Of a DNA stretch of 35,634 nt, positions 1 to 35,634 are shown piece after piece (positions within the stretch are counted from its first letter, which is position 1; every line of letters starts with the position of its first letter). The stretch is from a virus. The position numbers were made by a program, and so were the translations under genes. The stretch lies in IMG/VR virus record IMGVR_UViG_3300027963_000175, positions 1 through 35,634 of that record; one strand, written 5' to 3'. The notes under the pieces were generated by a model. That model was not told where the DNA came from. It worked only from the letters and a program-made list of their open reading frames with translations, and searched no databases.

Positions 1-2
1 AA

Positions 3-1943
3 TTAACTGATGCAGTTTGGAGTTCAAGGCCATATAGTGGGAGCAAGGCTTGGATGATTGAACACGGAGATTTAAATACAACTGCGATAACTAATATTGA
101 TTTATCTGATATGCGTGGTTATGATTTGCGTCTAATTACTGGGGAATATACATCAAGTAAATTTATAGGAACCGGTTATCCTTCAAATACTACATCTGCA
201 ATAATTCATTTAGAATCAAATCCATCAAGATCGGATATAATAGGAAATAAAAAGTATTTTTTTCGACCTGATTATTGGATTCCAAGCACTTTGCACAATA
301 CTCATTCATATTTTAGAAGGATGCCCGACATCGAGCAAATTTTTGATAAAAATGGAATGAAAAAAATGTGGGTTGATATGGCCGAACCATTAATGGATAT
401 TGTAAACGCATCTACTCATACGGCAAGAACATCAACACGGCTAAATAAAGGTATTACAGAGGCTCGAGATGTTACAACAGCTTGGGGAGTAAGTCAAAAC
501 ATTGATAGAAATAAACATCTATTTTATGAATATGATGACACGTTTAAATCTGCAGTGGCAAGGGCTTGGGATTCTAGTGGAGTACCGGCAACGGGTAATT
601 TTTTAGATGATATTTGGCAACATAGAACGACGGCATTATTTGAATCATTAGATGTAAGCCAAGCAAATAAATCTACTTGGAGGTATATTCGAGGCGGTTA
701 TGATTGGAGTTATTACGAAGTAAATAAATATGAATTTACAACGGCTTGGGCATCAGGTACAAATTATCAATTTGATGGGCCAGCAAGTCAATATACATCA
801 TATTTTTATCCATATGGGGCAACTAATGGAGTGCATATTGAATATGATTTTGAAATAGTAAGCCCAGCTTTATTTTCTGAAATTGCGGGAATCAATTGGA
901 ACAAATGTATTAATTCGGCCAAGGCAGTTGCTGAACAAGTTTATAGCGGTTTTCAATATCCAAAATTTTCTATTTATGGTTTAGGGATTTATCAATCTAT
1001 TAATCAAGGGGCAAGTGGTTATGGATGGAAAGATATGAAGCCGGGTAATACAATTACGGGAACGCAATTATATTCCGATTATCACGATTATTTTGTAAAT
1101 GGTACAATTTCTTATACGAGTTTAGGAACTTATAAAGCGTGGTTTAAAGGAGCAATTGAAAATTTTGGCTATTTCTATGTTTCAAACTATCAATTGGATA
1201 TGGATGCCAAATTCCAAATTTATTCAATCGTTCATAATACCGATATTACAAGAAAGATATTATTTCAAATTTTAGGAAGTGGACATAATAAAAAGGTTTG
1301 CGGTTATTTTTGGTATAAACAAGAAATCGTCTCGGGAACTTCGGATTATTCATACCAACGCAAAGTAGTAACATCGGGAGGTGGACAATATAATACGGAT
1401 CGCAACCGATTGGAAGCATCGCCATCAATGATGTATAATATGGCGGTATGGTCAATGACTTATGCAGATGGTCTATACTTTTGGTACCAAGCAAAATTAG
1501 GCGAAGAAACGGGAGCAGCAAGAACGGATGGAGAAGCAAATTCATTAAGTGATGGGGCTATAGAAACTAAATGGGGCGAAACTTGGTGCGTAGGTAAATC
1601 TTCATATGATTGGGCCTATATTGGTTATTTGCACGCAAGTCAAAACAAAGATATTATTGGGGCCAATACTGATTGGAAAACTCCTAATTATTATTTAGGT
1701 AGTAGCAGTTGGACATCGGGAACGCAAGAATATCCGGTTAGTTTATTTAATCAATCAAGGCCCATATCTAAGTATAAATTAAGTGCAGATGGCACAGAAG
1801 CATTAGTTATTATTTACAATGGATTTAATAATGGCTATACAAAAGTAACTCATACGTTACGATTGCCGGATAAGGCAAATTACCAGTTTACAGTTGACAC
1901 TTATGGGAGTTTTACTACGATTTTACGTTTAAGCGGTTTATAA
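3..1943 (+). CDS. Tail fibre / receptor-binding-like protein, 5' truncated (copy A)
   Basis: The reading frame is open from the window edge and lacks about the first 118 residues compared with the complete copy at 29252-31546. It is rich in Tyr, Trp, Ser and Gly, has no transmembrane segment, and ends in a beta-rich stretch (a Gly-Phe-Asn-Asn turn, then alternating hydrophobic residues). It lies downstream of the tail-tip gene in the complete copy, so a tail fibre or an adsorption-associated carbohydrate-binding or degrading protein is the best inference. I recognise no catalytic motif. About 16 residues differ from copy B, scattered and mostly conservative. Confidence 0.7.
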   Translation, partial: LTDAVWSSRPYSGSKAWMIEHGDLNTTAITNIDLSDMRGYDLRLITGEYTSSKFIGTGYPSNTTSAIIHLESNPSRSDIIGNKKYFFRPDYWIPSTLHNTHSYFRRMPDIEQIFDKNGMKKMWVDMAEPLMDIVNASTHTARTSTRLNKGITEARDVTTAWGVSQNIDRNKHLFYEYDDTFKSAVARAWDSSGVPATGNFLDDIWQHRTTALFESLDVSQANKSTWRYIRGGYDWSYYEVNKYEFTTAWASGTNYQFDGPASQYTSYFYPYGATNGVHIEYDFEIVSPALFSEIAGINWNKCINSAKAVAEQVYSGFQYPKFSIYGLGIYQSINQGASGYGWKDMKPGNTITGTQLYSDYHDYFVNGTISYTSLGTYKAWFKGAIENFGYFYVSNYQLDMDAKFQIYSIVHNTDITRKILFQILGSGHNKKVCGYFWYKQEIVSGTSDYSYQRKVVTSGGGQYNTDRNRLEASPSMMYNMAVWSMTYADGLYFWYQAKLGEETGAARTDGEANSLSDGAIETKWGETWCVGKSSYDWAYIGYLHASQNKDIIGANTDWKTPNYYLGSSSWTSGTQEYPVSLFNQSRPISKYKLSADGTEALVIIYNGFNNGYTKVTHTLRLPDKANYQFTVDTYGSFTTILRLSGL

Positions 1944-1944
1944 G

Positions 1945-2103
1945 ATGATAAAGCAAGTAATTAGTTTATTAATGACGATTGACCATTTTAATCAATCTGA
2001 ATTAATTGAAATAGCAAAAGGAAGGAATGAAATTCCGACCACATTACATAAGGGAATTAAACAAATAAAAAGAATATCCAAATGGCGAAAGATGTCGAAG
2101 TAA
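1945..2103 (+). CDS. 52-aa conserved small protein between fibre and tape measure (copy A)
   Basis: The ATG follows the fibre stop by one base, and the gene overlaps the start of the tape measure gene by 22 bases in another frame. The protein is basic at its C-terminus (KGIKQIKRISKW) and predicted helical, with no membrane segment. The same frame is intact in copy B (31548-31706) with only a few substitutions, which supports real coding. The position before the tape measure suggests a tail assembly role, but I do not recognise the family. Confidence 0.65.
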   Translation: MIKQVISLLMTIDHFNQSELIEIAKGRNEIPTTLHKGIKQIKRISKWRKMSK

Positions 2104-3563
2104 ATTTAAACGTAAATAATAACGTTGAGGGATCAATTGCCGAATTAAAGAAATTAAAGAAGCAATTAAAGGATACCGAAGTCGGCACAGAAGCGTTTAA
2201 AAATCTTTACAATCAGATTGATGATTTAGAAGATAAAATTAAGTCGGCAAAAAATGTGTCCTCCGATTGGGTAGATTCTTTGGCAAGTGCTGGTGGCCCA
2301 ATTGGAGAATTAGGAACGACCATAAATAATGTAAAAGTAGCGACGCAATCTTTTGGAAGTGCATTAAAAGCAACAGGAATTGGTTTGCTTGTTTCCTTAG
2401 TTGGTGGATTAGTGGCAGCGTTTAATGATTCTGAAAAAGCGACTAAAAAACTACAACCATTATTTCTTGGATTGGAAAAAATATTTAATGGCGTTTTTGC
2501 AGCAATTGAACCATTGTTTAACACCTTGGTCGATTTTGCAATTAGTGCTTTGCCTTTAGTTTCTAAAGCAATGCAAACGGTGTACGGATCAGTTACGGCA
2601 GTTATTCAATCATTGGGAAGTTTAGGGAGTTCAGTTTTAAAATTTATTAAAGGTGATTTTTCGGGTGCCTGGAAGGATGCTAAATCTTCGGTAAATGATT
2701 TCGGTAAAAATTACGATGAATCAATTAAACGTTTTCAAGATGGTTCAAAAGAGTTAACAAAAACCGAAAAAGAGGAATTAGATAAAAGAAATAAACAAAG
2801 AGAGGAAGATTTACAAAAACAATACGATAAAAATGAGGAATTATTAAAAAAATACAAAGCCCAACAACAACAAGAATACGATGATAGGACAAAAGGTTTA
2901 GAATGGTTAAAATTAATTAATACGGGGTATTTACAAAAAGTCGAATCAGATTCTCAAAAGTATTCTAAATTAAATTTAAAGAATTTAACAGAAAGGTTAG
3001 ATGCTGAAACGGCTTTAGAAAGAAAGAAAAAAGAAGAAGGAATTGTAACTACTCAAACAGAGGCAGATTCGAAAGAGGAAATTAAAGAAAAATCGATTGC
3101 AAATATTATGCGAATCGGTCAGGGTTTAAGACAGATTGCTGGTGATAATAAAGAATTGGCAATCGCTGGAATTGTGTTGGAACAATCTGCGGCAGTTGCT
3201 TCTATTATTATGAATACTCAAAAAAATGCGGCCAAATATGGTTATTTAACTCCTTTGGGAATCTCTGAATTAGTTGCTGGAGGTCTGGGGGTTGCTTCTG
3301 CAATTTCCGCAGGTGTTAAAGGTATTCAAGATATTAATTCGGGAACGGCTACGGGAAATCAAATGAGTTTTGGAAATCCACAAATGACTGCAAGCTATTC
3401 TAAAGCACCAACATTTAACGTGGTAGGTGTTAGTCCAGTCAATCAAATTGCACAGTCCTTAGGTGGGGAAATGCCACCAGTACGGGCCTATGTTGTGGCT
3501 AATGATGTAACAAATCAACAAGCATTAGACCGAAATAGAGTAAGTGCAGCAACATTAGGATAA
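2082..3563 (+). CDS. Tape measure protein (copy A)
   Basis: A 493-aa protein with the layout of a short tape measure: a charged coiled-coil N-terminus (about 12-60), a hydrophobic Gly/Ala-rich region (about 95-185, with two or three possible membrane-inserting helices), a long Lys/Glu/Gln coiled coil (about 225-360), and a second hydrophobic Ala/Gly block (about 360-420). Tape measure proteins set tail length and help DNA entry. By the usual rule of about 1.5 angstrom per residue, 493 residues implies a short tail of roughly 70-75 nm. It differs from copy B at 16 residues, seven of them between residues 76 and 93. The next gene encodes the head protease, so the tail and head modules touch here. 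Confidence 0.85.
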   Translation: MAKDVEVNLNVNNNVEGSIAELKKLKKQLKDTEVGTEAFKNLYNQIDDLEDKIKSAKNVSSDWVDSLASAGGPIGELGTTINNVKVATQSFGSALKATGIGLLVSLVGGLVAAFNDSEKATKKLQPLFLGLEKIFNGVFAAIEPLFNTLVDFAISALPLVSKAMQTVYGSVTAVIQSLGSLGSSVLKFIKGDFSGAWKDAKSSVNDFGKNYDESIKRFQDGSKELTKTEKEELDKRNKQREEDLQKQYDKNEELLKKYKAQQQQEYDDRTKGLEWLKLINTGYLQKVESDSQKYSKLNLKNLTERLDAETALERKKKEEGIVTTQTEADSKEEIKEKSIANIMRIGQGLRQIAGDNKELAIAGIVLEQSAAVASIIMNTQKNAAKYGYLTPLGISELVAGGLGVASAISAGVKGIQDINSGTATGNQMSFGNPQMTASYSKAPTFNVVGVSPVNQIAQSLGGEMPPVRAYVVANDVTNQQALDRNRVSAATLG

Positions 3564-3597
3564 TCGAAAATATAACAAAACAAAATTTAAAGGTTTA

Positions 3598-4188
3598 ATG
3601 GATATGAAAATAATCGAGTTGATTATCGAAAACGATTTGGATGGAATTGAGGCGATCTCGTTGGTTGAAAAACCTGCGATTGAATCCAATTTTATCACAT
3701 TGGCTAAGGAGTACGAAATGAATTTGGCGGAAGTTGATGGCGAGAAGCACATATTAATGGGCCCGGCATTAATTCCAAATAAAATGATTTTCAGAAAGGA
3801 AGGCGATTTGAAATATCAAGTCTATTTTTCTGAGGCTACGGTAGAGCAAGCAAGCCAAATGTATTTAAAAGCGGGCAATCAATCAAACGCAACTTTGCAC
3901 CATAAAACAAAGGTGGATGGTATGTCCTTGGTTGAATCGTGGATCATCACGAATCCTGAAATGGACAAGTCTAAAGCCTACGGATTTGATTTGCCAAAAG
4001 GGACTTGGATGGTATCAATGAAAGCCGATAATGAGGAAATGTGGCAAAAGGCAAAAAGCGGAGAGGTAAAAGGTTTTTCAATTGAAGGATATTTTGCAGA
4101 CAAATTGAGTTTACAAGTTTTGCCTGATATTGATGACAATGAATTAGTAGAACACATTTTAAATATTTTAGAAGATGGCGAAAAATAG
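3598..4188 (+). CDS. Prohead serine protease, XkdF-like (Peptidase_S78_2) (copy A)
   Basis: A 196-aa protein resembling the XkdF family of capsid maturation proteases. Visible landmarks are the N-terminal ISLVEKPAI segment, the His pair at residues 101-102 (LHHKTK, candidate catalytic His), the LVESWII strand, and the candidate nucleophile S161 within GFSIEGYF. In the family the enzyme cleaves the scaffold and capsid N-termini inside the procapsid. It sits just upstream of the scaffold-like and capsid genes, as expected. The ATG at 3598 is followed by a second in-frame ATG two codons later. Its stop overlaps the next start by 14 bases. Only one residue differs in copy B. Confidence 0.85.
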   Translation: MDMKIIELIIENDLDGIEAISLVEKPAIESNFITLAKEYEMNLAEVDGEKHILMGPALIPNKMIFRKEGDLKYQVYFSEATVEQASQMYLKAGNQSNATLHHKTKVDGMSLVESWIITNPEMDKSKAYGFDLPKGTWMVSMKADNEEMWQKAKSGEVKGFSIEGYFADKLSLQVLPDIDDNELVEHILNILEDGEK

Positions 4189-4363
4189 TTACACAAGTCC
4201 AAAGGGCGGTAAACGTGGATGCTTATGCAAAGATGAAACGTATTCGGTTGATTGTTGCGATGGCGAGATTATCTCACAAGGTGTTGGGGCCTTAGTTAGC
4301 CAATCAATTTCGGATGTAAATAATACAAATCAACCAAGAACAATTGTAACAACATCAAATTAA
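4175..4363 (+). CDS. 62-aa Cys-rich small protein (copy A)
   Basis: It starts inside the end of the protease gene. The first 40 residues carry Gly/Lys-rich and Cys motifs (GCLCKD, then DCCDGE), followed by a Ser/Asn-rich tail. Four cysteines in CxC and CC pairs could bind metal or form disulfides, but this is unproven. In copy B the first 40 residues are nearly identical while the last 20 diverge strongly, right beside the indel boundary. The function is unknown; by position it belongs to the head assembly operon. Confidence 0.7.
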   Translation: MAKNSYTSPKGGKRGCLCKDETYSVDCCDGEIISQGVGALVSQSISDVNNTNQPRTIVTTSN

Positions 4364-4368
4364 AAGAT

Positions 4369-4761
4369 ATGCAAACAGAAAAATTAGTATTTGAAAAATT
4401 ATTTGGAACAAATAAGGTTGAATTAACATCTCAAAGAATTGAATTAGCAAAAAAACCTATTTCTATTTTATCAGATGTAAAAAAAGTGGATGATACATTA
4501 AGGAAAAATGAAGCTAAAATAGAAGCAATTTATTTAAGTTATAAAAAAGCTTACAATGAATTTCAATTGGCAATTGATTCAGCATTAAATTCAGTTAATT
4601 CTTCAGAAAAGGATTTATTAGTAGTTATGGATGGTTTAACTGCTTTAGGTTTAGACGCTAAAGAAGCACAAAAAATTGAAGGATTTACTGCTGCTTCGGA
4701 TTTAATTAATAAAATTCAGCAAATGGCCCCAAATGCTAAAAATTTATATCCAAAACCATAA
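4369..4761 (+). CDS. 130-aa helical protein in a strain-variable insertion
   Basis: This gene is present in copy A and absent from copy B, where the 62-aa gene is followed almost directly by the scaffold-like gene. The protein is almost entirely helical and charged, with coiled-coil-like heptads around residues 35-75 (Lys/Glu/Ala/Leu) and no Cys or membrane segment. The DNA looks even more AT-rich than its neighbours and uses mainly A/T-ending codons, consistent with a separate origin. It could be an accessory virion or decoration protein, or a moron-like gene. I do not recognise a family. Confidence 0.75.
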   Translation: MQTEKLVFEKLFGTNKVELTSQRIELAKKPISILSDVKKVDDTLRKNEAKIEAIYLSYKKAYNEFQLAIDSALNSVNSSEKDLLVVMDGLTALGLDAKEAQKIEGFTAASDLINKIQQMAPNAKNLYPKP

Positions 4762-4787
4762 TAAAATAGTAATTAACAAAAATAAAT

Positions 4788-5381
4788 ATGGAATACAAAA
4801 GCACAAAAAATCGAGTTAAAGCAGTTTTAGGCTTTCAGATTAATTTGGCACAAATGAAGTTAGAGGATGGAATTACCATCGTTGAAGCGGAAGCATTTGA
4901 GCCTGATTACTCAATTGGAATCGTTACGACTGACGGAATTGTACCGTTACCAGTAGGCGAATACACTTTAGAAGATGGTAAAATCTTAGTGGTAGCAGTT
5001 GAAGGAATCATTGCAGAAGTTAAAGATGCAATGCCTGAGGAAGCACCTATGCCAGAGGCACCGGTAAATGTAACGGTGGAGGCAGATTCACAAGCACCAC
5101 AACCAAAAAGAGTGGTTGAATCGGTTAGCAAAGAAACATTTTTTGCAGAAATCGAGAAGTTACGCACGGAATTATCGGCACAAATCAACGAAGTTAAATC
5201 GGAAAATGAATCCTTAAAAGCCGAAAAATTAGCATTAGAAGTAAAATTAAATAGTCAAGAAGAAGGAGCCGAACCAATTGTACCGAATCCTGAAGCTGAA
5301 GTAAAAGTACAAGGATTTGCGTACGGACAAAATCATCCCGAAACAATTCTTGATAATGTGTTTTCAAAAATATTTTCATAA
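4788..5381 (+). CDS. Scaffold-like protein upstream of capsid (copy A)
   Basis: A 197-aa acidic protein. It has an N-terminal globular part (about 1-75, including a VPLPVGEYTLEDGK hairpin), a Pro/Glu/Ala-rich linker (80-110), a clear Lys/Glu/Leu coiled coil (about 114-160), and a C-terminal tail ending DNVFSKIFS. A coiled-coil protein between the protease and the capsid protein is the classic place and shape of a scaffolding protein. The N-terminal part may have a further role. It is conserved in copy B (33979-34572). The assignment rests on position and architecture, not a recognised motif. Confidence 0.65.
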   Translation: MEYKSTKNRVKAVLGFQINLAQMKLEDGITIVEAEAFEPDYSIGIVTTDGIVPLPVGEYTLEDGKILVVAVEGIIAEVKDAMPEEAPMPEAPVNVTVEADSQAPQPKRVVESVSKETFFAEIEKLRTELSAQINEVKSENESLKAEKLALEVKLNSQEEGAEPIVPNPEAEVKVQGFAYGQNHPETILDNVFSKIFS

Positions 5382-5403
5382 CAATTTAAATTAATTACAA
5401 GAA

Positions 5404-6357
5404 ATGGCGACCACCACATCAATTACGACTACGTATGCCGGTCAATACGCAAATAAGATTATTGCGGCATCATTGCTTTCATCTCCTACTATCGATCGCG
5501 GTGGTATTGAGGTAAAGCCTAATGTAAATTACAAGCAAGTTATCAAGCGTGTTGCTACTGATGCAATCTTAAAAGATGCAACTTGCGATTTTGATGCAAC
5601 ATCTACAATTACTTTGACTGAAAAAATCTTACAACCGGAGGAGTTCCAAGTGAATTTACAATTGTGTAAAAAAGATTTCGTTTCTGATTGGTTAGGTGCA
5701 GAGCAAGGATTTTCAGCATTTAAAGTATTGCCTAAATCATTCCAAGAGTTCTTAGTTGCTCACGTTGCTGCTAAAGTTGCTGCAAAAAATGAGACTAACA
5801 TTTGGGAAGGTGTAACGGCTAACGCTGGAGAGTTTAATGGTTTAACTACATTATTAACGACGGATGCCAATTTACCTTCTGCACAAGAAGTTGCGGGAAC
5901 TACTGTAACGGCTTCAAACGTAATTACTGAACTTGGTAAAATTGCGGATGCTATTCCGTCATCTCTTTACACTAAAGATGATCTTTACATCTACGTTTCT
6001 CAATCAATTGCTCGTTCTTATGTTCGTGCTTTGGGTGGTTTTGGTTCTTCGGGCTTAGGTGCTAATGGTACTAACGCAATGGGTACACAATGGTACAATA
6101 ATGGATCATTAACATTTGACGGAATCAAAATTTTTGTTGCTGATGGTCTTGCTTCAACTAAGGCAATTGCGACACAAAAATCAAACCTTTATTTTGGTAC
6201 TGATTTATTATCTGATTTGGCTGAAGTTCAAGTAATTGATATGTCCCCAATGGATGGATCACAAAACGTGCGTATCGTAATGCGTATGACGGCAGGAGTT
6301 CAATACGGATTTGCTTCTGATATTGTTACTTACGGAATTACAAACTCCGCTAACTAA
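5404..6357 (+). CDS. Major capsid protein (copy A)
   Basis: A 317-aa protein directly after the scaffold-like gene and followed by a strong terminator, as expected for the most highly expressed structural gene. It is rich in Ala, Thr, Gly and Val, has no membrane segments, and has the mixed alpha/beta composition of HK97-fold capsids. The codon choice is visibly more GC-rich and regular than in the early genes, a sign of high expression. Copy B differs at seven residues. The fold is inferred from size, context and conservation; I cannot point to a diagnostic motif. Confidence 0.8.
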   Translation: MATTTSITTTYAGQYANKIIAASLLSSPTIDRGGIEVKPNVNYKQVIKRVATDAILKDATCDFDATSTITLTEKILQPEEFQVNLQLCKKDFVSDWLGAEQGFSAFKVLPKSFQEFLVAHVAAKVAAKNETNIWEGVTANAGEFNGLTTLLTTDANLPSAQEVAGTTVTASNVITELGKIADAIPSSLYTKDDLYIYVSQSIARSYVRALGGFGSSGLGANGTNAMGTQWYNNGSLTFDGIKIFVADGLASTKAIATQKSNLYFGTDLLSDLAEVQVIDMSPMDGSQNVRIVMRMTAGVQYGFASDIVTYGITNSAN

Positions 6358-16854: not shown

Positions 16855-17059
16855 CCTTTATATTAGCAAAGGCGAAAGGCGAATCAAGGCCGAAACCATC
16901 TGCGAAATCATTCGATTTCAGTTGATGAAGGAGTTTAATGATGGGCATAAATTCATTAGGTTTTTTGCCCAGGATTATGCAAAAAAGTTCGAAAATGATT
17001 TCCCGCAACACGTTGGAATCTTTACAAAAAGATTGGTAAATTTTGAACTTAAAGATTAA
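16787..17059 (+). CDS. 90-aa phage early protein (FNExNPxVYxxF type)
   Basis: The sequence FNEVNPRVYDQFKEIANLYI, followed by RRIKAETICEIIRFQ and FFAQDYAKKFENDFP, follows a pattern seen in many phage and plasmid early proteins: a helical domain with a conserved NPxVY start and a YAxxFxxxxP end. Its function is unknown; DNA binding has been guessed for such proteins because of the helix-rich basic make-up. The stop lies within the spacer of the promoter at 17042-17072. Confidence 0.6.
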   Translation: MKSFLKFNEVNPRVYDQFKEIANLYISKGERRIKAETICEIIRFQLMKEFNDGHKFIRFFAQDYAKKFENDFPQHVGIFTKRLVNFELKD

Positions 17060-17072
17060 TTTGCTATATTGC
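17042..17072 (+). promoter_or_regulatory. Bacteroidota-type promoter for the structured RNA
   Basis: TTTG (17042-17045), exactly 19 bases, then TATATTGC (17065-17072), matching the -33 TTTG / -7 TAnnTTTG pattern except for one base. The predicted start is about 17078-17080, just before the structured RNA. It overlaps the 3' end of the 90-aa gene. Confidence 0.65.
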
Positions 17073-17078
17073 AATACA

Positions 17079-17170
17079 ATAAGTCAAGACGGTGAGAGGT
17101 ATTGATTTGTTCTAAAGGTTTATCATACCTAACTAAGCCAGTCTACTCTCTCACGTAGCTGGCTTTTTTA
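17079..17170 (+). ncRNA. Structured RNA with pseudoknot, own promoter and terminator
   Basis: Hairpin P2: AGGTAT-(T)-GAT (97-106 of 17000+) pairs with ATCATACCT (17122-17130), a nine-pair stem with a 15-base loop. Hairpin P3: AGCCAG-(T)-CTAC (17136-17146) pairs with GTAGCTGGCT (17155-17164), followed by TTTTTT. The eight-base P3 loop TCTCTCAC contains CTCTCAC (17148-17154), the exact complement of GTGAGAG (17092-17098) just before P2. So the terminator loop can form a pseudoknot with the 5' end; its last two bases compete with P2. No coding frame covers it. It may be a free small RNA or a leader that controls termination before the gene at 17181. Confidence 0.7.
17136..17170 (+). terminator. 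Terminator hairpin of the structured RNA
   Basis: A ten-pair stem (AGCCAG, bulged T, CTAC / GTAG CTGGCT), eight-base loop, then six T. It lies 11 bases before the start codon of the replication gene, so read-through or anti-termination would set expression of that operon. Confidence 0.8.
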
Positions 17171-17180
17171 TTTTTAATTT

Positions 17181-17960
17181 ATGGCAGCATTTCGCAAAAT
17201 ATCCGTTTCCTTTTGGTCGGATTCATTTGTGGGGGAGTTGACACCAGAGCAAAAATATTTCTATTTGTATCTGATGACCAATGACAAGACAACCCAATGT
17301 GGCATTTACGAAACATCGATTCGGAAAATGTCTTTTGATACTGGTTACAATCAAGAAACGGTATTAAAATTAATTTCATTTTTTGAGGAACAAAACAAAA
17401 TCAGGTTTTCAAAAGAAACCAATGAAATTGCTTTATTAAACTGGGTCAAGTACAATGATTCAACATCGCCAAAAGTTACGGCTTGCGTTGATAAAGAACT
17501 TTTAAAGGTTAAAAATAGAGTATTGATACACTATCTATACAGTATGGATACACATCCACAAGAAGAAGAAGAAAAAGAAGAAGAAAAAGAAAAAGAATAC
17601 CAAGAAGAAAAAGAAGAAGAAAAAGATCCTTTTTACATTCCTACAGAACGTGATCTTCTTTTTAATAAGTGGTTTGATTATAAAAAACAAAAACGATCTA
17701 AGTACACAAAAATTGGTATGGATCAATTGTTTAAAGAATGGGAATTAGTTGGTAATTTTGAATTAGAAAAAGCGATTAATCATTCGATAGCTAATAATTA
17801 TCAAGGGTTATTTGCACCTAAAGAAAATAAACCTTTAATCAATTCAGAACCGGCACCTGGTAAGATGACCAAGAATCTTAATCAAATGCAAGAAATTTAT
17901 GAAGAAACTTTAGAACAAATAGCAAATGGAACTTATCACAATCCCTTCATCCGGAAATAG
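17181..17960 (+). CDS. Replication initiator / replisome organiser-like protein
   Basis: A 259-aa protein. Residues 1-95 (VSFWSDSFVGELTPEQKYFYLYL, TQCGIYETSIRKMSFDTGY, LLNWVKYN) match the winged-helix N-terminal region of phage replisome organisers and DnaD-like proteins. Residues about 127-150 are a Glu/Lys low-complexity linker. The C-terminal part (about 155-259) is helical with FNKWFDYKKQKRSKYTKIGM and NHSIANNYQGLF, a common replication-protein tail. It probably binds the origin and loads the helicase. It is the first gene after the structured RNA, and the next gene overlaps it by 35 bases. Confidence 0.7.
   Translation: MAAFRKISVSFWSDSFVGELTPEQKYFYLYLMTNDKTTQCGIYETSIRKMSFDTGYNQETVLKLISFFEEQNKIRFSKETNEIALLNWVKYNDSTSPKVTACVDKELLKVKNRVLIHYLYSMDTHPQEEEEKEEEKEKEYQEEKEEEKDPFYIPTERDLLFNKWFDYKKQKRSKYTKIGMDQLFKEWELVGNFELEKAINHSIANNYQGLFAPKENKPLINSEPAPGKMTKNLNQMQEIYEETLEQIANGTYHNPFIRK
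17560..17626 (+). repeat. GAA/AAG low-complexity tract
   Basis: An almost pure A/G tract of GAA, AAG and GAAAAA units encodes the Glu/Lys linker of the replication protein. It is prone to in-frame length change, and its reverse complement is a poly-Phe shadow frame without biological meaning. Confidence 0.85.
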
Positions 17961-20741: not shown

Positions 20742-21097
20742 GCGATACTATCGAACAATTCACGGAGGCTACCGGTATAAAAGCAGGAGTTGAAAAATTA
20801 GCGGAGGCAATCGGTTGGGATTGTGGATGTGACAAAAGAAAAGAAGCATTGAATCAAATGTTTCCATACCGAAAAATCAATTGTTTAAATGAAGAAGATT
20901 ACGAATACCTTAATTATTGGTTTAGCGTTGATCGCCATCAGGTTTCAATCTTGGAGCAAACGAAACTCCGTGAAATTTATTACAATGTTTTCGAAGAACG
21001 ATTAGAGCAAACGAGTTGTGATAGTTGCTGGAGGGATTACATTAGTCGTATTCGTAAAGTTTACATCGAGTATAAAAAAAATCAAGATGCCAATTGA
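20714..21097 (+). CDS. 127-aa Cys-containing conserved phage protein
   Basis: The N-terminus MAKRKPKGLGDTIEQFTEAT, then CGCDKRKEALNQMFPY, is a recurring pattern in Bacteroidota phages, where the gene sits shortly before the terminase genes. A CxC motif (37-39) and a CDSC motif near residue 101 could form a metal site. The rest is helical. Function unknown. It overlaps the sigma factor gene and the methyltransferase gene, so all three are co-translated. Confidence 0.65.
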   Translation: MAKRKPKGLGDTIEQFTEATGIKAGVEKLAEAIGWDCGCDKRKEALNQMFPYRKINCLNEEDYEYLNYWFSVDRHQVSILEQTKLREIYYNVFEERLEQTSCDSCWRDYISRIRKVYIEYKKNQDAN

Positions 21098-22274
21098 ATT
21101 AAAAAAGATTAGTGATATTAAATTGAATCCGAATAATCCAAGATTAATTAAGGATGATAAATTTAAAAAGTTAGTTCAGTCGATTAAGGATTTTCCCGAA
21201 ATGTTGGACATTCGTCCGATTGTCGTAAACAAAGATATGATAATCTTGGGTGGCAATATGAGGTACAGGGCTTGCAAAGAAGCAGGCATAAAAGAAATAC
21301 CGGTAATTGTTACTGATTTATCAGAGGAAAAACAAAGAGAATTTTTAATCAAGGATAATACAAGTGGAGGAGAGTGGGATTGGGATATGTTGGCCAACGA
21401 ATGGGATACCGATGAACTTGAAGCGTGGGGATTAGATTTGCCTTCGTTTGATATTGATGATTTAGGAACGGCAGAAGAAGATGATTACGATGTACCTGAT
21501 ACGATTGAAACGGATATTGTGTTAGGGGATTTGTTTGAGATTGGAGAACATAGATTGCTTTGTGGGGATTCAACGGATAGCGATGCGGTTGCAAAGTTAA
21601 TGGATGGCAATAAAGCTGATATAGCATTTACAAGTCCGCCATATAATGCTGGAGATAATGTGCGTGGCAAATTTTATGAAAATGATAATGATAATAAATC
21701 AAATGATGATTATGTTAAATTTTTATATGATTTTACTATAAATACTTTAAATAATTCAAAATATTCATTCGTTAATTTGCAAATTTTAGAAAGCAATAAA
21801 CAAGCTTTAATTAATTATCAATATCAACTTAAAGACCAAATAAAAGATATATTAATTTGGAATAAAAAACAATATCCACCACATATAAATAAGGGGACTT
21901 TTGGATGTAAATGGGAATATGTTTTTGCATTTTCTTATGATTCTAAAGGCCGTTCATTTCCTGCAAGTTGGCAAGGTAAATTTCCAAATGTAATTGAAAC
22001 TGAAAATGCTAGTGGTAATGATTATGCTCAAATTCATAAAGCAACATTTCTGATTGCATTTCCATCTTGGATATTTGAAAAAATGGATTTCGCAAAATTA
22101 ATATTAGATTTATTTATGGGGACAGGTACAACTATGGTAGCATCACATCAATTGAATCGTAAATGCTATGGAATGGAATTAGAACCGAAGTATTGCCAAG
22201 TGATAGTTGACCGAATGCAAAAATTAGATCCAACATTAGTAATTAAAAAAAACGGACAACCGTATGGCATATAA
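21087..22274 (+). CDS. ParB-like domain fused to an N6/N4 DNA methyltransferase
   Basis: A 395-aa fusion. Residues 1-105 are a ParB/Srx-type domain (NPNNPRLI, LGGNMRYRACKEAG, IKDNTSGGEWD). Residues about 140-395 are an amino-DNA methyltransferase with the catalytic TSPPYN motif at 182-187 before the AdoMet-binding DLFMGTGTT at 341-349, the beta-class order. It probably methylates phage DNA to escape restriction or to mark replication or packaging sites; target sequence unknown. The ATG at 21087 overlaps the previous stop; an earlier ATG at 21018 lies inside that gene. The central target-recognition part (about 190-290) is markedly AT-rich and Asn-rich. Confidence 0.9.
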   Translation: MPIELKKISDIKLNPNNPRLIKDDKFKKLVQSIKDFPEMLDIRPIVVNKDMIILGGNMRYRACKEAGIKEIPVIVTDLSEEKQREFLIKDNTSGGEWDWDMLANEWDTDELEAWGLDLPSFDIDDLGTAEEDDYDVPDTIETDIVLGDLFEIGEHRLLCGDSTDSDAVAKLMDGNKADIAFTSPPYNAGDNVRGKFYENDNDNKSNDDYVKFLYDFTINTLNNSKYSFVNLQILESNKQALINYQYQLKDQIKDILIWNKKQYPPHINKGTFGCKWEYVFAFSYDSKGRSFPASWQGKFPNVIETENASGNDYAQIHKATFLIAFPSWIFEKMDFAKLILDLFMGTGTTMVASHQLNRKCYGMELEPKYCQVIVDRMQKLDPTLVIKKNGQPYGI

Positions 22275-29251: not shown

Positions 29252-31546
29252 ATGGCATTTTCAAACGCAAGTGATGCGAGAACAAAATTAATCAATCCTT
29301 ATACGGATAATAGTTCAGAAATTTTGTATGCCAATAATGATTTATTGGATTCGACTACAATATTTTACAAAAATTCGACCAAGACTATTTTAGCAAGTGC
29401 TGGAAATTACGTGGTTGTCACAAACTATAAAACGTATTTCATTACTCTTGGAAGCGATGGTAAAATTAGCGGAACTAAATCCGAAGTGATGCCGAGTGGA
29501 TCAGATTCAACCTGGGTAGAGGATAGATTAAAAAATGGCGATGCATTAATATCAAATCAATTAAGCGTAGGGGGTACAAGTTTAAGCATTTCGGGAGATT
29601 TTAAATTAACTGATGCAGTTTGGAGTTCAAGGCCATATAGTGGGAGCAAGGCTTGGATGATTGAACACGGAGATTTAAATACAACTGCGATAACTAATAT
29701 TGATTTATCTGATATGCGTGGTTATGATTTAAGGTTAATTACTGGGGAATATACATCAAGTAAATTTGTCGGAACTGGTTATCCTTCAAATACTACATCT
29801 GCAATAATTCATTTAGAATCAAATCCATCAAGATTGGATATAATAGGAAATAAAAAGTATTTTTTTCGGCCTGATTATTGGATTCCAAGCACTTTGCACA
29901 ATACTCATTCATATTTCAGAAGGATGCCCGACATCGAGCAGATTTTTGATAAAAATGGAATGAAAAAAATGTGGGTGGATATGGCCGAACCATTGATGGA
30001 TATTGTAAATGCATCTACTCATACGGCAAGAACATCAACACGGCTAAATAAAGGTATTACAGAGGCTCGAGATGTTACAACATCTTGGGGAGTAAGTCAA
30101 AACATTGATAAAAATAAACATCTATTTTATGAATATGATGACACGTTTAAATCTGCGGTGGCAAGGGCTTGGGATTCGAGTGGAGTACCGGCAACTGGTA
30201 ATTTTTTAGACGATATTTGGCAACATAGAACGACGGCATTATTTGAGTCATTAGATGTAAGCGAAGCAAATAAATCCACTTGGAGATATACTCGAGGCGG
30301 TTATGATTGGAGTTATTACGAAGTAAATAAATATGAATTTACAACGGCTTGGGCATCAGGTACAAATTATCAATTTGATGGGCCAGCAAGTCAATATACA
30401 TCTTATTTTTATCCTTACGGGGCAACCAATGGAGTGCATATTGAATATGATTTTGAGGTAATAAGCCCAGCTTTATTTTCTGAAATTGCGGGAATCAATT
30501 GGAATAAATGTATTAATTCGGCCAAGGCAGTTGCTGAACAAGTTTATAGTGGTTTTCAATATCCAAAATTTTCTATTTATGGTTTAGGGATTTATCAATC
30601 TATTAATCAAGGGGCAAGTGGTTATGGATGGAAAGATATGAAACCAGGGAATACAATTACGGGAACGCAATTATATTCCGATTATCACGATTATTTTGTA
30701 AATGGTACAATTCCTTATACGAGTTTAGGAAGTTACAAAGCGTGGTTTAAAGGAGCAATTGAAAATTTTGGCTATTTCTATGTTTCAAATTATCAATTGG
30801 ATATGGATGCCAAATTCCAAATTTATTCAATCGTTCATAATACCGATATTACAAGAAAGATATTATTTCAAATTTTAGGTGCTGGTCATAACAAAAAAGT
30901 TTGCGGTTATTTTTGGTATAAACAAGAAATCGTTTCGGGAACTTCGGATTATTCATATCAACGTAAAGCAGTAACATCGGGAGGTGGACAATACAATACG
31001 GATCGCAATCGATTGGAAGCCTCTCCGTCAATGATGTACAATATGGCGGTATGGTCAATGACTTATGCAGATGGTCTATACTTTTGGTATCAAGCAAAAT
31101 TAGGCGAAGAAACGGGAGCAGCAAGAACGGATGGAGAAGCAAATTCATTAAGTGATGGAGCCATTGAAACTAAATGGGGCGAAACTTGGTATGTTGGTAA
31201 ATCTTCATATGATTGGGCATATATCGGTTATCTTCACGCAAGTCAGAACAAAGATATTATTGCAGCAAATACTGATTGGAAGACACCTAATTATTATTTA
31301 GGAAGTAGCACTTGGACATCTGGAACGCAAGAATATCCAGTTAGTTTATTTAATCAATCAAGGCCCATTTCAAAATATAAATTAAGTGCAGATGGCACAG
31401 AGGCATTAGTTATTATTTACAATGGATTTAATAATGGCTATACAAAAGTAACTCATACGTTACGATTACCGGATAAGGCAAATTACCAGTTTACAATTGA
31501 CACTTATGGAAGTTTTACTACGATTTTACGTTTAAGCGGTTTATAA
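29252..31546 (+). CDS. Tail fibre / receptor-binding-like protein, complete (copy B)
   Basis: A 764-aa protein starting one base after the tail-tip stop. Residues 1-118 (absent from copy A, which is cut by the window edge) include a collar-like N-terminus (MAFSNASDARTKLINPYTDN) that probably joins the tail tip, and SLSISGDFKLTDAVW. The large body is rich in Trp/Tyr with repeating YDWSYYEV/SSYDWAYI-like segments, and the end (SADGTEALVIIYNG, then KANYQFTIDTYGSFT) looks like a beta-sandwich seen at the C-terminus of surface-polymer hydrolases. A glycan-hydrolysing or binding fibre is plausible; no catalytic pair is identified. Confidence 0.7.
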   Translation: MAFSNASDARTKLINPYTDNSSEILYANNDLLDSTTIFYKNSTKTILASAGNYVVVTNYKTYFITLGSDGKISGTKSEVMPSGSDSTWVEDRLKNGDALISNQLSVGGTSLSISGDFKLTDAVWSSRPYSGSKAWMIEHGDLNTTAITNIDLSDMRGYDLRLITGEYTSSKFVGTGYPSNTTSAIIHLESNPSRLDIIGNKKYFFRPDYWIPSTLHNTHSYFRRMPDIEQIFDKNGMKKMWVDMAEPLMDIVNASTHTARTSTRLNKGITEARDVTTSWGVSQNIDKNKHLFYEYDDTFKSAVARAWDSSGVPATGNFLDDIWQHRTTALFESLDVSEANKSTWRYTRGGYDWSYYEVNKYEFTTAWASGTNYQFDGPASQYTSYFYPYGATNGVHIEYDFEVISPALFSEIAGINWNKCINSAKAVAEQVYSGFQYPKFSIYGLGIYQSINQGASGYGWKDMKPGNTITGTQLYSDYHDYFVNGTIPYTSLGSYKAWFKGAIENFGYFYVSNYQLDMDAKFQIYSIVHNTDITRKILFQILGAGHNKKVCGYFWYKQEIVSGTSDYSYQRKAVTSGGGQYNTDRNRLEASPSMMYNMAVWSMTYADGLYFWYQAKLGEETGAARTDGEANSLSDGAIETKWGETWYVGKSSYDWAYIGYLHASQNKDIIAANTDWKTPNYYLGSSTWTSGTQEYPVSLFNQSRPISKYKLSADGTEALVIIYNGFNNGYTKVTHTLRLPDKANYQFTIDTYGSFTTILRLSGL

Positions 31547-31547
31547 T

Positions 31548-31706
31548 ATGATAAAGCAAGTAATTAATTTATTAATGACGATTGACCATTTTAATGAATC
31601 TGAATTAATTGAAATAGCAAAAGGAAGGAATGAGATTCCGATCACATTACACAAGGGAATTAAACAAATAAAAAGAATATCCAAATGGCAAAAGATGTCG
31701 AAGTAA
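31548..31706 (+). CDS. 52-aa conserved small protein (copy B)
   Basis: Counterpart of 1945-2103, with the same start, length and overlap with the tape measure gene. The few substitutions seen (for example Ser to Asn at 7, Gln to Glu at 17, Thr to Ile at 32) leave the frame intact, which supports coding. Confidence 0.65.
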   Translation: MIKQVINLLMTIDHFNESELIEIAKGRNEIPITLHKGIKQIKRISKWQKMSK

Positions 31707-33166
31707 ATTTAAACGTAAAAAATAACGTTGAGGGATCAATTGCCGAATTAAAGAAATTAAAAAAGCAATTAAAAGATACCGAAGTCGGAACGGAAGCGTT
31801 TAAAAATCTATACAATCAGATTGATGATTTAGAGGACAAAATTAAATCAGCCAAAAACGTTTCGTCGGATTGGGTTGATTCTTTGGCAAGTGCTGGTGGC
31901 CCGATTGGGACATTAGGTACGGCTTTAAATAGTGCTAAGGTAGCAACACAATCATTTAGTGGAGCGTTAAAAGCCACGGGAATTGGTTTGCTTGTTTCTT
32001 TAGTTGGTGGATTAGTGGCAGCGTTTAATGATTCTGAAAAAGCAACAAAAAAACTACAACCATTATTTCTTGGATTAGAAAAAATATTCAATGGGGTATT
32101 TTCTGCGATTGAACCATTGTTTAATACCTTGGTCGATTTTGCGATTAGTGCTTTGCCTTTAGTTTCTAAAGCAATGCAAACAGTGTACGGATCAGTCACG
32201 GCAGTTATTCAATCATTAGGAAGTTTAGGGAGTTCAGTTTCAAAATTTATTAAAGGCGATTTTTCGGGTGCCTGGAAGGATGCTAAATCTTCGGTAAATG
32301 ATTTCGGTAAAAATTACGATGAATCAATTAAACGTTTTCAAGATGGTTCAAAAGAATTGACCAAAACCGAAAAAGAGGAATTAGACAAACGGAAAAAACA
32401 AAGAGAGGAAGATTTACAAAAACAATACGATAAAAATGAGGAATTATTAAAAAAATACAAAGCTCAACAACAACAAGAATACGATGATAGGACAAAAGGT
32501 TTAGAATGGTTAAAATTAATTAATACGGGGTATTTACAAAAAGTCGAATCAGATTCTCAAAAGTATTCTAAATTAAATTTAAAGAATTTAACAGAAAGGT
32601 TAGATGCTGAAACGGCTTTAGAAAGAAAGAAAAAAGAAGAAGGAATTGTAACTACTCAAACAGAGGCAGATTCGAAAGAGGAAATTAAAGAAAAATCGAT
32701 TGCAAATATTATGCGAATCGGTCAAGGTTTAAGACAGATTGCTGGGGATAATAAGGAATTAGCTATTGCAGGTATTGTGTTGGAACAATCGGCGGCAGTT
32801 GCTTCCATTATTATGAATACTCAAAAAAATGCGGCCAAATATGGTTATTTAACTCCTTTGGGAATCTCTGAATTAGTTGCTGGAGGTCTTGGAGTTGCTT
32901 CTGCTATTGCCGCTGGAGTTAAAGGTATTCAAGATATTAATTCGGGAACGGCTACGGGAAATCAAATGAGTTTTGGAAATCAACAAATGACGGGAAGCTA
33001 TTCTAAGGCACCAACATTTAACGTGGTAGGTGTTAGTCCAGTCAATCAAATTGCACAGTCCTTAGGTGGGGAAATGCCACCAGTACGGGCCTATGTCGTG
33101 GCTAATGATGTAACAAGTCAACAAGCATTAGATCGGAATCGGATAAGTGCCGCAACATTAGGATAA
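31685..33166 (+). CDS. Tape measure protein (copy B)
   Basis: A 493-aa counterpart of 2082-3563 with the same coiled-coil and hydrophobic layout and no length change. Of 16 differing residues, seven lie between 76 and 93, just before the first hydrophobic block. That clustering looks like local recombination with another lineage more than steady drift. Confidence 0.85.
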   Translation: MAKDVEVNLNVKNNVEGSIAELKKLKKQLKDTEVGTEAFKNLYNQIDDLEDKIKSAKNVSSDWVDSLASAGGPIGTLGTALNSAKVATQSFSGALKATGIGLLVSLVGGLVAAFNDSEKATKKLQPLFLGLEKIFNGVFSAIEPLFNTLVDFAISALPLVSKAMQTVYGSVTAVIQSLGSLGSSVSKFIKGDFSGAWKDAKSSVNDFGKNYDESIKRFQDGSKELTKTEKEELDKRKKQREEDLQKQYDKNEELLKKYKAQQQQEYDDRTKGLEWLKLINTGYLQKVESDSQKYSKLNLKNLTERLDAETALERKKKEEGIVTTQTEADSKEEIKEKSIANIMRIGQGLRQIAGDNKELAIAGIVLEQSAAVASIIMNTQKNAAKYGYLTPLGISELVAGGLGVASAIAAGVKGIQDINSGTATGNQMSFGNQQMTGSYSKAPTFNVVGVSPVNQIAQSLGGEMPPVRAYVVANDVTSQQALDRNRISAATLG

Positions 33167-33200
33167 TCGAAAATATAACAAAACAAAATTTAAAGGTTTA

Positions 33201-33791
33201 ATGGATATGAAAATAATCGAGTTGATTATCGAAAACGATATGGATGGAATTGAGGCGATTTCGTTGGTTGAAAAACCAGCAATTGAATCCAATTTTATCA
33301 CATTGGCTAAGGAGTACGAAATGAATTTGGCGGAAGTTGATGGCGAAAAGCACATATTAATGGGCCCAGCATTAATTCCAAATAAAATGATTTTCAGAAA
33401 AGAAGGCGATTTGAAATACCAGGTTTATTTTTCAGAAGCTACGGTAGAGCAGGCAAGCCAAATGTATTTAAAAGCAGGCAATCAATCAAACGCGACATTG
33501 CACCACAAAACAAAGGTGGATGGTATGTCCTTAGTTGAATCGTGGATTATCACGAATCCCGAAATGGATAAGTCGAAAGCCTACGGATTTGATTTGCCTA
33601 AAGGAACGTGGATGGTATCAATGAAAGCCGATAATGAGGAAATGTGGCAAAAGGCAAAAAGCGGAGAGGTCAAAGGTTTTTCAATTGAAGGATATTTTGC
33701 GGACAAATTGAGTTTACAAGTTTTGCCTGATATTGATGACAATGAATTAGTTGAACACATTTTAAATATTTTAGAAGATGGCGAAAAATAG
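33201..33791 (+). CDS. Prohead serine protease, XkdF-like (copy B)
   Basis: Identical to the copy A protein except for Leu to Met at residue 14, with H101/H102 and S161 kept. Many silent changes in the DNA against one amino-acid change show strong purifying selection. Confidence 0.85.
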   Translation: MDMKIIELIIENDMDGIEAISLVEKPAIESNFITLAKEYEMNLAEVDGEKHILMGPALIPNKMIFRKEGDLKYQVYFSEATVEQASQMYLKAGNQSNATLHHKTKVDGMSLVESWIITNPEMDKSKAYGFDLPKGTWMVSMKADNEEMWQKAKSGEVKGFSIEGYFADKLSLQVLPDIDDNELVEHILNILEDGEK

Positions 33792-33966
33792 TTACACAAG
33801 CCCAAAAGGCGGTAAACGTGGATGCTTATGCAAAGACGAAACGTATTCACCTGATTGTTGCGATGGAGAGATTATCTCGCAAGGTGTTGGGGCCTTAGTT
33901 GATCAAGTTGTTTCAAGTGTTAACAACACGAATTCACCGAGGACAATTATTTCAGTAAGTAATTAA
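33778..33966 (+). CDS. 62-aa Cys-rich small protein (copy B)
   Basis: The N-terminal Cys motifs are retained, with Val to Pro at residue 25. The final 20 residues (DQVVSSVNNTNSPRTIISVS) differ at many positions from copy A, beside the insertion breakpoint. The stop is 12 bases before the scaffold-like gene. Confidence 0.7.
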   Translation: MAKNSYTSPKGGKRGCLCKDETYSPDCCDGEIISQGVGALVDQVVSSVNNTNSPRTIISVSN

Positions 33967-33978
33967 ATAATAAATCAT

Positions 33979-34572
33979 ATGGAATACAAAAGCAAAAAAA
34001 ACTTGATTAAAGCCGCATTAGGTTTCCAAGTTAATTTAGCACAAATGAAGTTAGAGGATGGAATTACCATCGTTGAAGCGGAAGCATTTGAGCCTGATTA
34101 TTCAATTGGAATCGTAACGGCTGACGGTATTGTACCGTTACCAGTAGGCGAATACACTTTGGAGGATGGAAAGATTTTATCCGTAAAAGTTGAAGGAATT
34201 ATTGCAGAGGTTAAAGATGCAATGCCTGAGGAGGCACCAATGCCAGAGGCACCGGTAAATGTAATGGTGGAGGCAGATTCACAAGCACCACAACCAAAAA
34301 GAGTGGTTGAATCGGTAAGCAAAGAAACATTTTTTGCAGAAATCGAGAAGTTACGCACGGAATTATCGGCACAAATTAACGAAATTAAAGCGGAAAATGA
34401 ATCGTTAAAAGCCGAAAAATTAGCATTAGAAGTAAAATTAAATAGCCAAGAAGAAGGAGCCGAGCCAATTGTTCAGAATCCTGAAGCTGAAGTAAAAGTG
34501 CAAGGATTTGCGTATGGCCAAAATCATCCAGAAACAATTCTTGATAATGTGTTTTCAAAAATATTTTCATAA
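33979..34572 (+). CDS. Scaffold-like protein (copy B)
   Basis: A 197-aa counterpart of 4788-5381. Differences cluster in the first 15 residues and around 68-71; the coiled coil is conserved apart from Val to Ile and Ser to Ala changes. Here it follows the 62-aa gene directly, because the 130-aa gene is missing. Confidence 0.65.
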   Translation: MEYKSKKNLIKAALGFQVNLAQMKLEDGITIVEAEAFEPDYSIGIVTADGIVPLPVGEYTLEDGKILSVKVEGIIAEVKDAMPEEAPMPEAPVNVMVEADSQAPQPKRVVESVSKETFFAEIEKLRTELSAQINEIKAENESLKAEKLALEVKLNSQEEGAEPIVQNPEAEVKVQGFAYGQNHPETILDNVFSKIFS

Positions 34573-34594
34573 CAATTTAAATTAATTACAAGAA

Positions 34595-35548
34595 ATGGCG
34601 ACCACCACATCAATTACGACTACGTATGCCGGCCAATACGCAAATAAGATTATTGCGGCATCATTGCTTTCATCTCCAACTATCGATCGCGGTGGTATTG
34701 AGGTAAAGCCTAACGTAAATTACAAGCAAGTTATCAAGCGTGTTGCTACTGATGCAATCTTAAAAGATGCAACTTGCGATTTTGATGCAACATCTACAAT
34801 TACTTTGACTGAAAAAATCTTACAAACGGAGGAGTTCCAAGTGAACCTCCAGTTATGCAAAAAAGATTTTGTATCGGATTGGCTTGGCATGGAGCAAGGA
34901 TTTTCAGCGTTTAAGGTATTGCCTAAATCATTCCAAGAGTTCTTAGTAGCTCACGTTGCTGCAAAAGTTGCGGCAAAAAATGAAACAAACATTTGGGAAG
35001 GTGTAACGGCTAACGCTGGAGAATTTAATGGTTTAACTACATTATTAACGACGGATGCTGCTTTGCCATCGGCTCAAGAAGTTGCGGGAACTACTGTAAC
35101 AGCTTCAAACGTAATTACTGAACTTGGTAAAATTGTTGATGCTATTCCAGCTTCATTGTACACTAAGGATGATCTTTACATCTACGTTTCTCAATCAATT
35201 GCTCGTTCTTATGTTCGTGCTTTGGGTGGTTTCGGTTCTTCGGGCTTAGGTGCATCCGGTACTAACGCAATGGGAACTCAATGGTACAACAACGGAAGTT
35301 TAACATTTGACGGAATCAAAATTTTTGTTGCTGATGGTCTTGCATCTACTAAGGCAATTGCGACACAAAAATCAAACCTTTATTTTGGTACTGATTTATT
35401 ATCTGATTTGGCTGAAGTTCAAGTGATTGATATGTCCCCAATGGATGGATCACAAAACGTGCGTATCGTAATGCGTATGACTGCTGGAGTTCAATACGGA
35501 TTTGCAGCTGATATTGTTACTTACGGAATTACAAACTCCGCTAACTAA
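34595..35548 (+). CDS. Major capsid protein (copy B)
   Basis: A 317-aa counterpart of 5404-6357 with seven substitutions (for example Pro to Thr in ILQTEEF, Ala to Met in WLGMEQ, and Asn to Ser in LGASGTN). The upstream 22 bases and the downstream terminator are identical between copies. Confidence 0.8.
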   Translation: MATTTSITTTYAGQYANKIIAASLLSSPTIDRGGIEVKPNVNYKQVIKRVATDAILKDATCDFDATSTITLTEKILQTEEFQVNLQLCKKDFVSDWLGMEQGFSAFKVLPKSFQEFLVAHVAAKVAAKNETNIWEGVTANAGEFNGLTTLLTTDAALPSAQEVAGTTVTASNVITELGKIVDAIPASLYTKDDLYIYVSQSIARSYVRALGGFGSSGLGASGTNAMGTQWYNNGSLTFDGIKIFVADGLASTKAIATQKSNLYFGTDLLSDLAEVQVIDMSPMDGSQNVRIVMRMTAGVQYGFAADIVTYGITNSAN

Positions 35549-35556
35549 TTAGTTTA

Positions 35557-35588
35557 AAGCACCTCGTTAATTCGGGGTGCTTATTTTT
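35557..35588 (+). terminator. Rho-independent terminator after the capsid gene (copy B)
   Basis: The same hairpin as at 6366-6391 (AAGCACCTCG / CGGGGTGCTT), followed by ATTTTTC. Confidence 0.85.
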
Positions 35589-35608
35589 CACATTTAAATA
35601 AATTCAAT

Positions 35609-35634
35609 ATGCCTTGCGATATTAGTTTAGGACG
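35609..35634 (+). CDS. Tail tube protein, 3' truncated by the window end (copy B)
   Basis: Only the first eight codons and part of the ninth are present (MPCDISLG), identical to 6418 onward. Confidence 0.7.

Follow-up and report, generated by a model that had tools for sequence, protein, structure and literature searches.

We found an RNA element consisting of two hairpins, whose loops pair with each other, directly upstream of a phage replication gene. Phages that infect Flavobacteria and related bacteria carry it before replication genes that are unrelated to one another. Judged from its sequence and its place in the genome, this element is probably (a probability of about 0.65) a cis-acting leader RNA that attenuates transcription of the phage's replication operon.

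The RNA in the window

The element was found in an IMG/VR phage record, and the window (the whole stretch of DNA that was analysed) is 35.6 kb long. The features of the element and of the neighbouring gene are as follows.

17042..17045, + strand: −33 promoter element TTTG (sequence)
17065..17071, + strand: −7 promoter element TATATTG, in close relatives TATATTTG (sequence and promoter scan)
17078..17090, + strand: 5′ arm of H1 (fold; changes on both sides in relatives)
17091..17098, + strand: H1 loop GGUGAGAG, 8 nt, in which L1 (17092-17098) pairs with L3 (100% Watson-Crick)
17099..17111, + strand: 3′ arm of H1 (fold and covariation)
17116..17130, + strand: H2, a small hairpin (AGGU/ACCU) between H1 and H3 (fold)
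17136..17146, + strand: 5′ arm of H3, the terminator (fold and covariation)
17147..17154, + strand: H3 loop UCUCUCAC, 8 nt, in which L3 is 17148-17154 (CUCUCAC) (covariation)
17155..17164, + strand: 3′ arm of H3 (fold and covariation)
17164..17169, + strand: terminator U-run (sequence; a T-run stands before the start codon in relatives)
17181..17960, + strand: gene of a replication initiator or DnaD-like helicase loader, putatively regulated (phrog matches)

Seven bases of one 8-nt loop are complementary to seven of the other, and thus an intramolecular kissing-loop complex results, in which L1 and L3 join H1 to H3 by a 7-bp helix. H1, this kissing helix and H3 are mutually compatible. In addition, H3 is an intrinsic terminator, because it is a GC-rich hairpin with a U-run immediately after it. 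The minimum-energy fold of the region was better than that of shuffled sequences (z = −2.85). At the site of H2, a GG..CC hairpin is also present at the same place in relatives. The product of the downstream gene matched phrog_6251 (E = 2.3e-45) and phrog_1701 (E = 2.9e-30).

Several parts of the original prediction are present in the sequence, namely the promoter with 19 nt between TTTG and TATATTG, the complementarity of GTGAGAG to CTCTCAC (each of which occurs once in the 35.6-kb window), a terminator hairpin P3 with CTCTCAC in its loop (our H3), and an RNA end 11 nt before the replication gene (the T-run ends at 17169 and the ATG is at 17181). Sequence and position also agree with an RNA that has its own promoter and terminator and the layout of an attenuator directly upstream of the replication gene. 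The fold had to be redrawn. GTGAGAG was described as a single-stranded 5′ element, and it is actually the loop of H1, a hairpin that had been missed. The proposed hairpin P2 (17097-17106 with 17122-17130) was rejected since only 50.3% of its cells pair in 27 relatives, and slid controls did no worse. A competition between P2 and the pseudoknot had also been suggested. We dropped this model, since P2 shows no conservation, H1, the kissing helix and H3 are compatible, and no conserved alternative helix was seen. What stands of the pseudoknotted RNA is the pairing between its 5′ part and the terminator loop, which is kept by covariation; the drawn fold is replaced by loop-loop kissing of two hairpins.

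Two observations concern the rest of the record. About 6 kb are repeated at its ends (window 1-6031 overlaps 29604-35634); the identity starts at 97% and then falls to about 87%, and there is a 412-bp offset. Thus, the record seems to be one turn of a ~29.6 kb genome followed by a second strain variant. The first copy of this repeat has a 130-aa ORF (window 4369-4761) that the second lacks; the offset goes from 29603 to 29191, and this difference between the copies is a strain-level insertion or deletion. Furthermore, window 21018-22274 encodes a ParB N-terminal domain fused to a DNA methyltransferase domain in one protein.

Conservation, position and distribution of the element

To compare the element, viral contigs were retrieved by a search with the replication protein, and their upstream regions were used as relatives. 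In an alignment of 27 rows, drawn only from contigs of this protein search, 99.3% of 729 cells were paired, compared with 86.0% in shuffles and 34-48% in slid versions. Both sides had changed in 16 of the 27 pairs. There were 106 doubly changed cells vs 29.6 ± 5.2 in shuffles, and the covariation score was 0.427 vs 0.154. In the kissing helix, all 189 cells (189/189) were paired, without a single G-U. When 88 distinct relatives were used, 98.4% of cells were paired, the covariation score was 0.669 vs 0.206, and each pair of H1 was doubly changed somewhere. The kissing helix was 100% Watson-Crick across several sequence types. Furthermore, a covariance model built without the kissing helix found an independent group with other stems (E = 2e-8 to 1e-4). 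The pairing is thus kept while the sequence changes, which indicates a real, uncatalogued RNA element. The compensatory changes that the original prediction had expected in homologues are strong in H1, H3 and the kissing helix.

Among the column pairs that form helices, those with the strongest covariation belong only to H1, the kissing helix and H3, and no mutually exclusive anti-terminator helix was found among the covarying column pairs. Invariant positions are few (the ends of the kissing helix, the H3 stem and the U-run), and across the relatives no riboswitch-like ligand-binding core with slow sequence change was seen. Among close relatives, one-sided changes numbered 0 in the kissing helix vs 40 in the stems, and double changes per pair were 0.86 in the kissing helix vs 2.3 in the stems. 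We also considered diversifying selection on the loops, which was unsupported, as kissing pairs did not change faster than stem pairs.

The loop pairs varied in the relatives. For instance, those of the window type carry GTGAGAG/CTCTCAC, GTAGGAG/CTCCTAC, GTCGGAG/CTCCGAC, GTCAGAG/CTCTGAC and GTGGTAG/CTACCAC, and further pairs from the scan include GTTGCAG, GTCGCAT, GTCTCAC and GCTGGAC; there are more than ten in total. The RNAs of phages L249 and L294 are identical apart from one substitution in L1 (U to A) and one in L3 (A to U), which concern both partners of one kissing pair, although the genes that follow them are of different families. There is also a second subclass (e.g. L262, L310, L311 and L313), with a shorter H1, a loop of ~14 nt, a kissing helix of ~8 bp and a two-part H3, which has the architecture alone in common with the first. 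Since the sequence is not conserved between subclasses, comparing the element with phage records by blast at the DNA level gave nothing useful.

To count the element without bias, two further replication-protein families were searched (three families in all). Loci found by the kissing pattern itself are biased towards kissing, and they were excluded from the unbiased counts, which are those of the 27 relatives, of the upstream regions and of the T-run spacing. We required two hairpins whose loops contain 7-nt segments of exact complementarity, with a T-run after the second hairpin. Among protein-search loci only, such a kissing terminator was present in 116 of 137 distinct upstream regions vs 7 of 685 shuffled regions; in most of the regions lacking it, coding sequence extends as far as the start codon.

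A Bacteroidota-type promoter stands at a fixed distance upstream of H1. A strong sense promoter (at least 9 of 10 consensus positions) was found in 58 of 91 elements, with its −7 box 26-34 nt before L1. The same scan, which detects the sense promoter, found no conserved antisense promoter in the 91 elements. In the stem cells, G-U was far more frequent than A-C (81 vs 26 in all, 22 vs 2 in the group of the window), and thus the sense RNA is the folded strand. In addition, the sense strand was the more stable one in 79 of 94 cases.

The position before the gene is also constant. In 83 of 84 kissing elements, the start codon follows the end of the T-run within 20 nt (4-12 nt, median 8 nt), whereas this was true of 20 of 92 other terminator-like hairpins at the same loci (median gap 102 nt). 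The downstream genes are unrelated replication modules, and their families include phrog_6251 (DnaD-like), phrog_2562/Lin1244_N, phrog_2514, DUF6291, HTH_36 and a primase-helicase. In some relatives, the RNA and the replication gene are separated by small genes of unknown function.

Among cultured phages, the element was found upstream of replication genes in Olleya phage Harreka_1, in Flavobacterium phages 11b, tooticki6-1, hemulen9-1 and mumin9-2, and in Cellulophaga phages phi19:3 and phi13:2. In tooticki, hemulen and mumin, a second element (GTCGTCG/CGACGAC) lies directly before an endonuclease/SSB operon (L467, about 1109-1190; L472, 5745-5826; L473, 3685-3766). Phages hemulen9-1 and mumin9-2 have the same host strain, LMO9. 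Their first elements are identical, and their second elements differ at two compensated pairs and have different replication modules downstream. Two elements of different sequence are also present in L187, a contig of a Saprospiraceae MAG, at 2067-2151 and about 3905-3995, where they precede a primase-helicase and the replication protein. In Nonlabens P12024S/L and Riemerella RAP44 no such element was found, and none was seen in elemoA. The Nonlabens phages (L463 and L464) have the nearest cultured-phage terminase (67% identity) and a VirE-type primase module. When 395 Bacteroidia genomes were searched with the covariance model, the matches were one phage-like contig (L187) and two ordinary terminators that do not kiss. 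Thus, no host-genome family was found in these genomes, and the strict filters may have lost weak matches. The element is confined to phage replication and recombination operons.

Proposed attenuation and alternative explanations

The space between the terminator and the start codon is too short for a promoter, and therefore the gene needs read-through; this is the main reason why we regard the element as an attenuator. In the mechanism that we propose, transcription would start just upstream of H1, and H1 would fold first and expose L1. L3 would then emerge from the polymerase and pair with L1, locking H1 to the terminator hairpin in a compact RNA. The kissing helix could form at the moment of the termination decision, because the polymerase is then in the U-run and L3 is just out of the enzyme. 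The polymerase would either stop at the U-run, giving an RNA of ~90 nt, or pass it and transcribe the gene of the replication initiator, with a start codon within about 10 nt. Read-through would be the regulated step, the kissing helix would set the balance between the two outcomes, and in this way the element probably sets the amount of the phage replication protein.

Most likely, the kissing helix would clamp and strengthen the terminator, and a factor, an ion or a temperature that weakens it would serve as the trigger for more read-through. Such clamping is likelier than a replacement of the terminator, because the kissing helix is compatible with the terminator and no competing helix is conserved. 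The sign may also be the opposite, if kissing delays the closing of H3 and so favours read-through. The same compatibility speaks against an attenuator in one respect, since it leaves no classical on/off switch helix; the small genes that separate the RNA from the replication gene in some relatives, and the lack of the element in some flavophages, also count against it.

Strict Watson-Crick pairing in many loop types suggests that the shape and the strength of the kissing helix matter rather than its letters, which argues against a seed that reads foreign targets. It is unlikely that the element is a free small RNA of early infection whose exposed loops pair with targets of the host or the phage, its location merely reflecting compact genomes. 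Such an RNA would account for the own promoter and terminator, for the two ends in hairpins and for the size of about 90 nt. However, the loops vary freely yet stay complementary to each other, hemulen9-1 and mumin9-2 have different loops in their second element on the same host LMO9, and the spacing from the T-run to the ATG is nearly constant. The original prediction had listed both an attenuator and a small trans-acting RNA, and the compensated variation of the kissing sequence together with the near-constant distance to the start codon makes the latter the less likely of the two. Modelled on plasmid incompatibility, copies of the leader could instead kiss one another (L1-L3′ and L3-L1′) and terminate sister transcripts, with the loops as compatibility groups in the control of copy number or superinfection. 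The more than ten loop pairs would agree with this, as would the use of two different pairs in two-element genomes (L187, tooticki, hemulen and mumin). Nevertheless, we hold it to be improbable, because the kissing pairs are not faster than the stems (0.86 vs 2.3 double changes per pair), a partner in cis is always closer, and no antisense promoter was found.

Control of translation or stability would fit the location of H3 and the T-run at most about 20 nt from the start codon and of the RNA 5′ end in H1: the kissed H3 might hinder the ribosome, or the kissed 5′ end might protect the mRNA, and termination would be incidental. A GC stem with a U-run is kept in all sequence classes, however, and translation control does not need it, so that we give this explanation little credence. 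Finally, single-stranded DNA hairpins beside the initiator gene, for example as part of an origin, would explain why the element adjoins replication genes. This is highly improbable in view of the polarity of promoter and U-run, the excess of G-U over A-C, the greater stability of the sense strand, and the element before the endonuclease/SSB operon.

Relation to known systems and meaning of the element

The attenuator reading has a parallel in the repC attenuator of pT181-type staphylococcal plasmids, where 5′ hairpins and an intrinsic terminator precede the initiator gene, which is expressed only by read-through. There, an antisense RNA acts together with a mutually exclusive preemptor helix. 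The flavophage terminator also lies directly before a replication initiator, but the element lacks a conserved antisense promoter and an alternative helix, and it has an internal kiss with the terminator loop instead. In ColE1, RNA I and RNA II kiss through loops of ~7 nt in replication control, as two molecules from opposite strands, whereas the flavophage kiss is within one molecule and no replication primer is known. The packaging RNA of phi29 is a small phage RNA with two compensating loops that pair between molecules in the packaging motor; in contrast, the flavophage RNA is a replication-gene leader with a terminator. Like these kissing-loop RNAs, the element has two loops with compensating complementarity. 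In the repZ leader of IncIα/IncB/IncK plasmids, the loop of a near-5′ hairpin pairs with a structure just upstream of the initiator gene, and this pseudoknot activates translation of repZ; it depends on a leader peptide, and an antisense RNA blocks it. The flavophage element likewise pairs a near-5′ loop just upstream of the replication gene, but its partner is the terminator loop. The IncIα/IncB/IncK group is treated in PMC10724649.

Rfam 15 gave zero matches in the window at the gathering score, in agreement with the original view that the RNA fitted no riboswitch class that could be named. At a relaxed threshold, the window and nine relatives gave chance matches only, none of them on the element, and no description of it was found in the open-licence literature searched. 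A 2021 list of RNAs names HMP_4078, a palindromic RNA of Bacteroidetes phages. The element is likely a new RNA family with the likely function of an attenuator. It resembles the plasmid attenuators of initiator genes, but two of their defining features, the antisense RNA and the anti-terminator helix, were not found.

Little appears to be known about the timing of replication genes in Bacteroidota phages, and here one control element is common to unrelated replication modules. Because cultured phages with cultured hosts carry it, the element can be tested now. In addition, it offers a naturally occurring case of an intrinsic terminator with a loop tethered to an upstream hairpin, and this is relevant to how the folding of terminators can be adjusted. 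For RNA engineering, its many loop pairs are a ready-made set of parts that may be orthogonal. More tentatively, Bacteroidota phages might use shape-read switches, in which a protein, an ion or a condition senses the kissing helix whatever its sequence and couples unrelated replication modules to one infection signal, or the partners might swap between RNAs and so count genomes.
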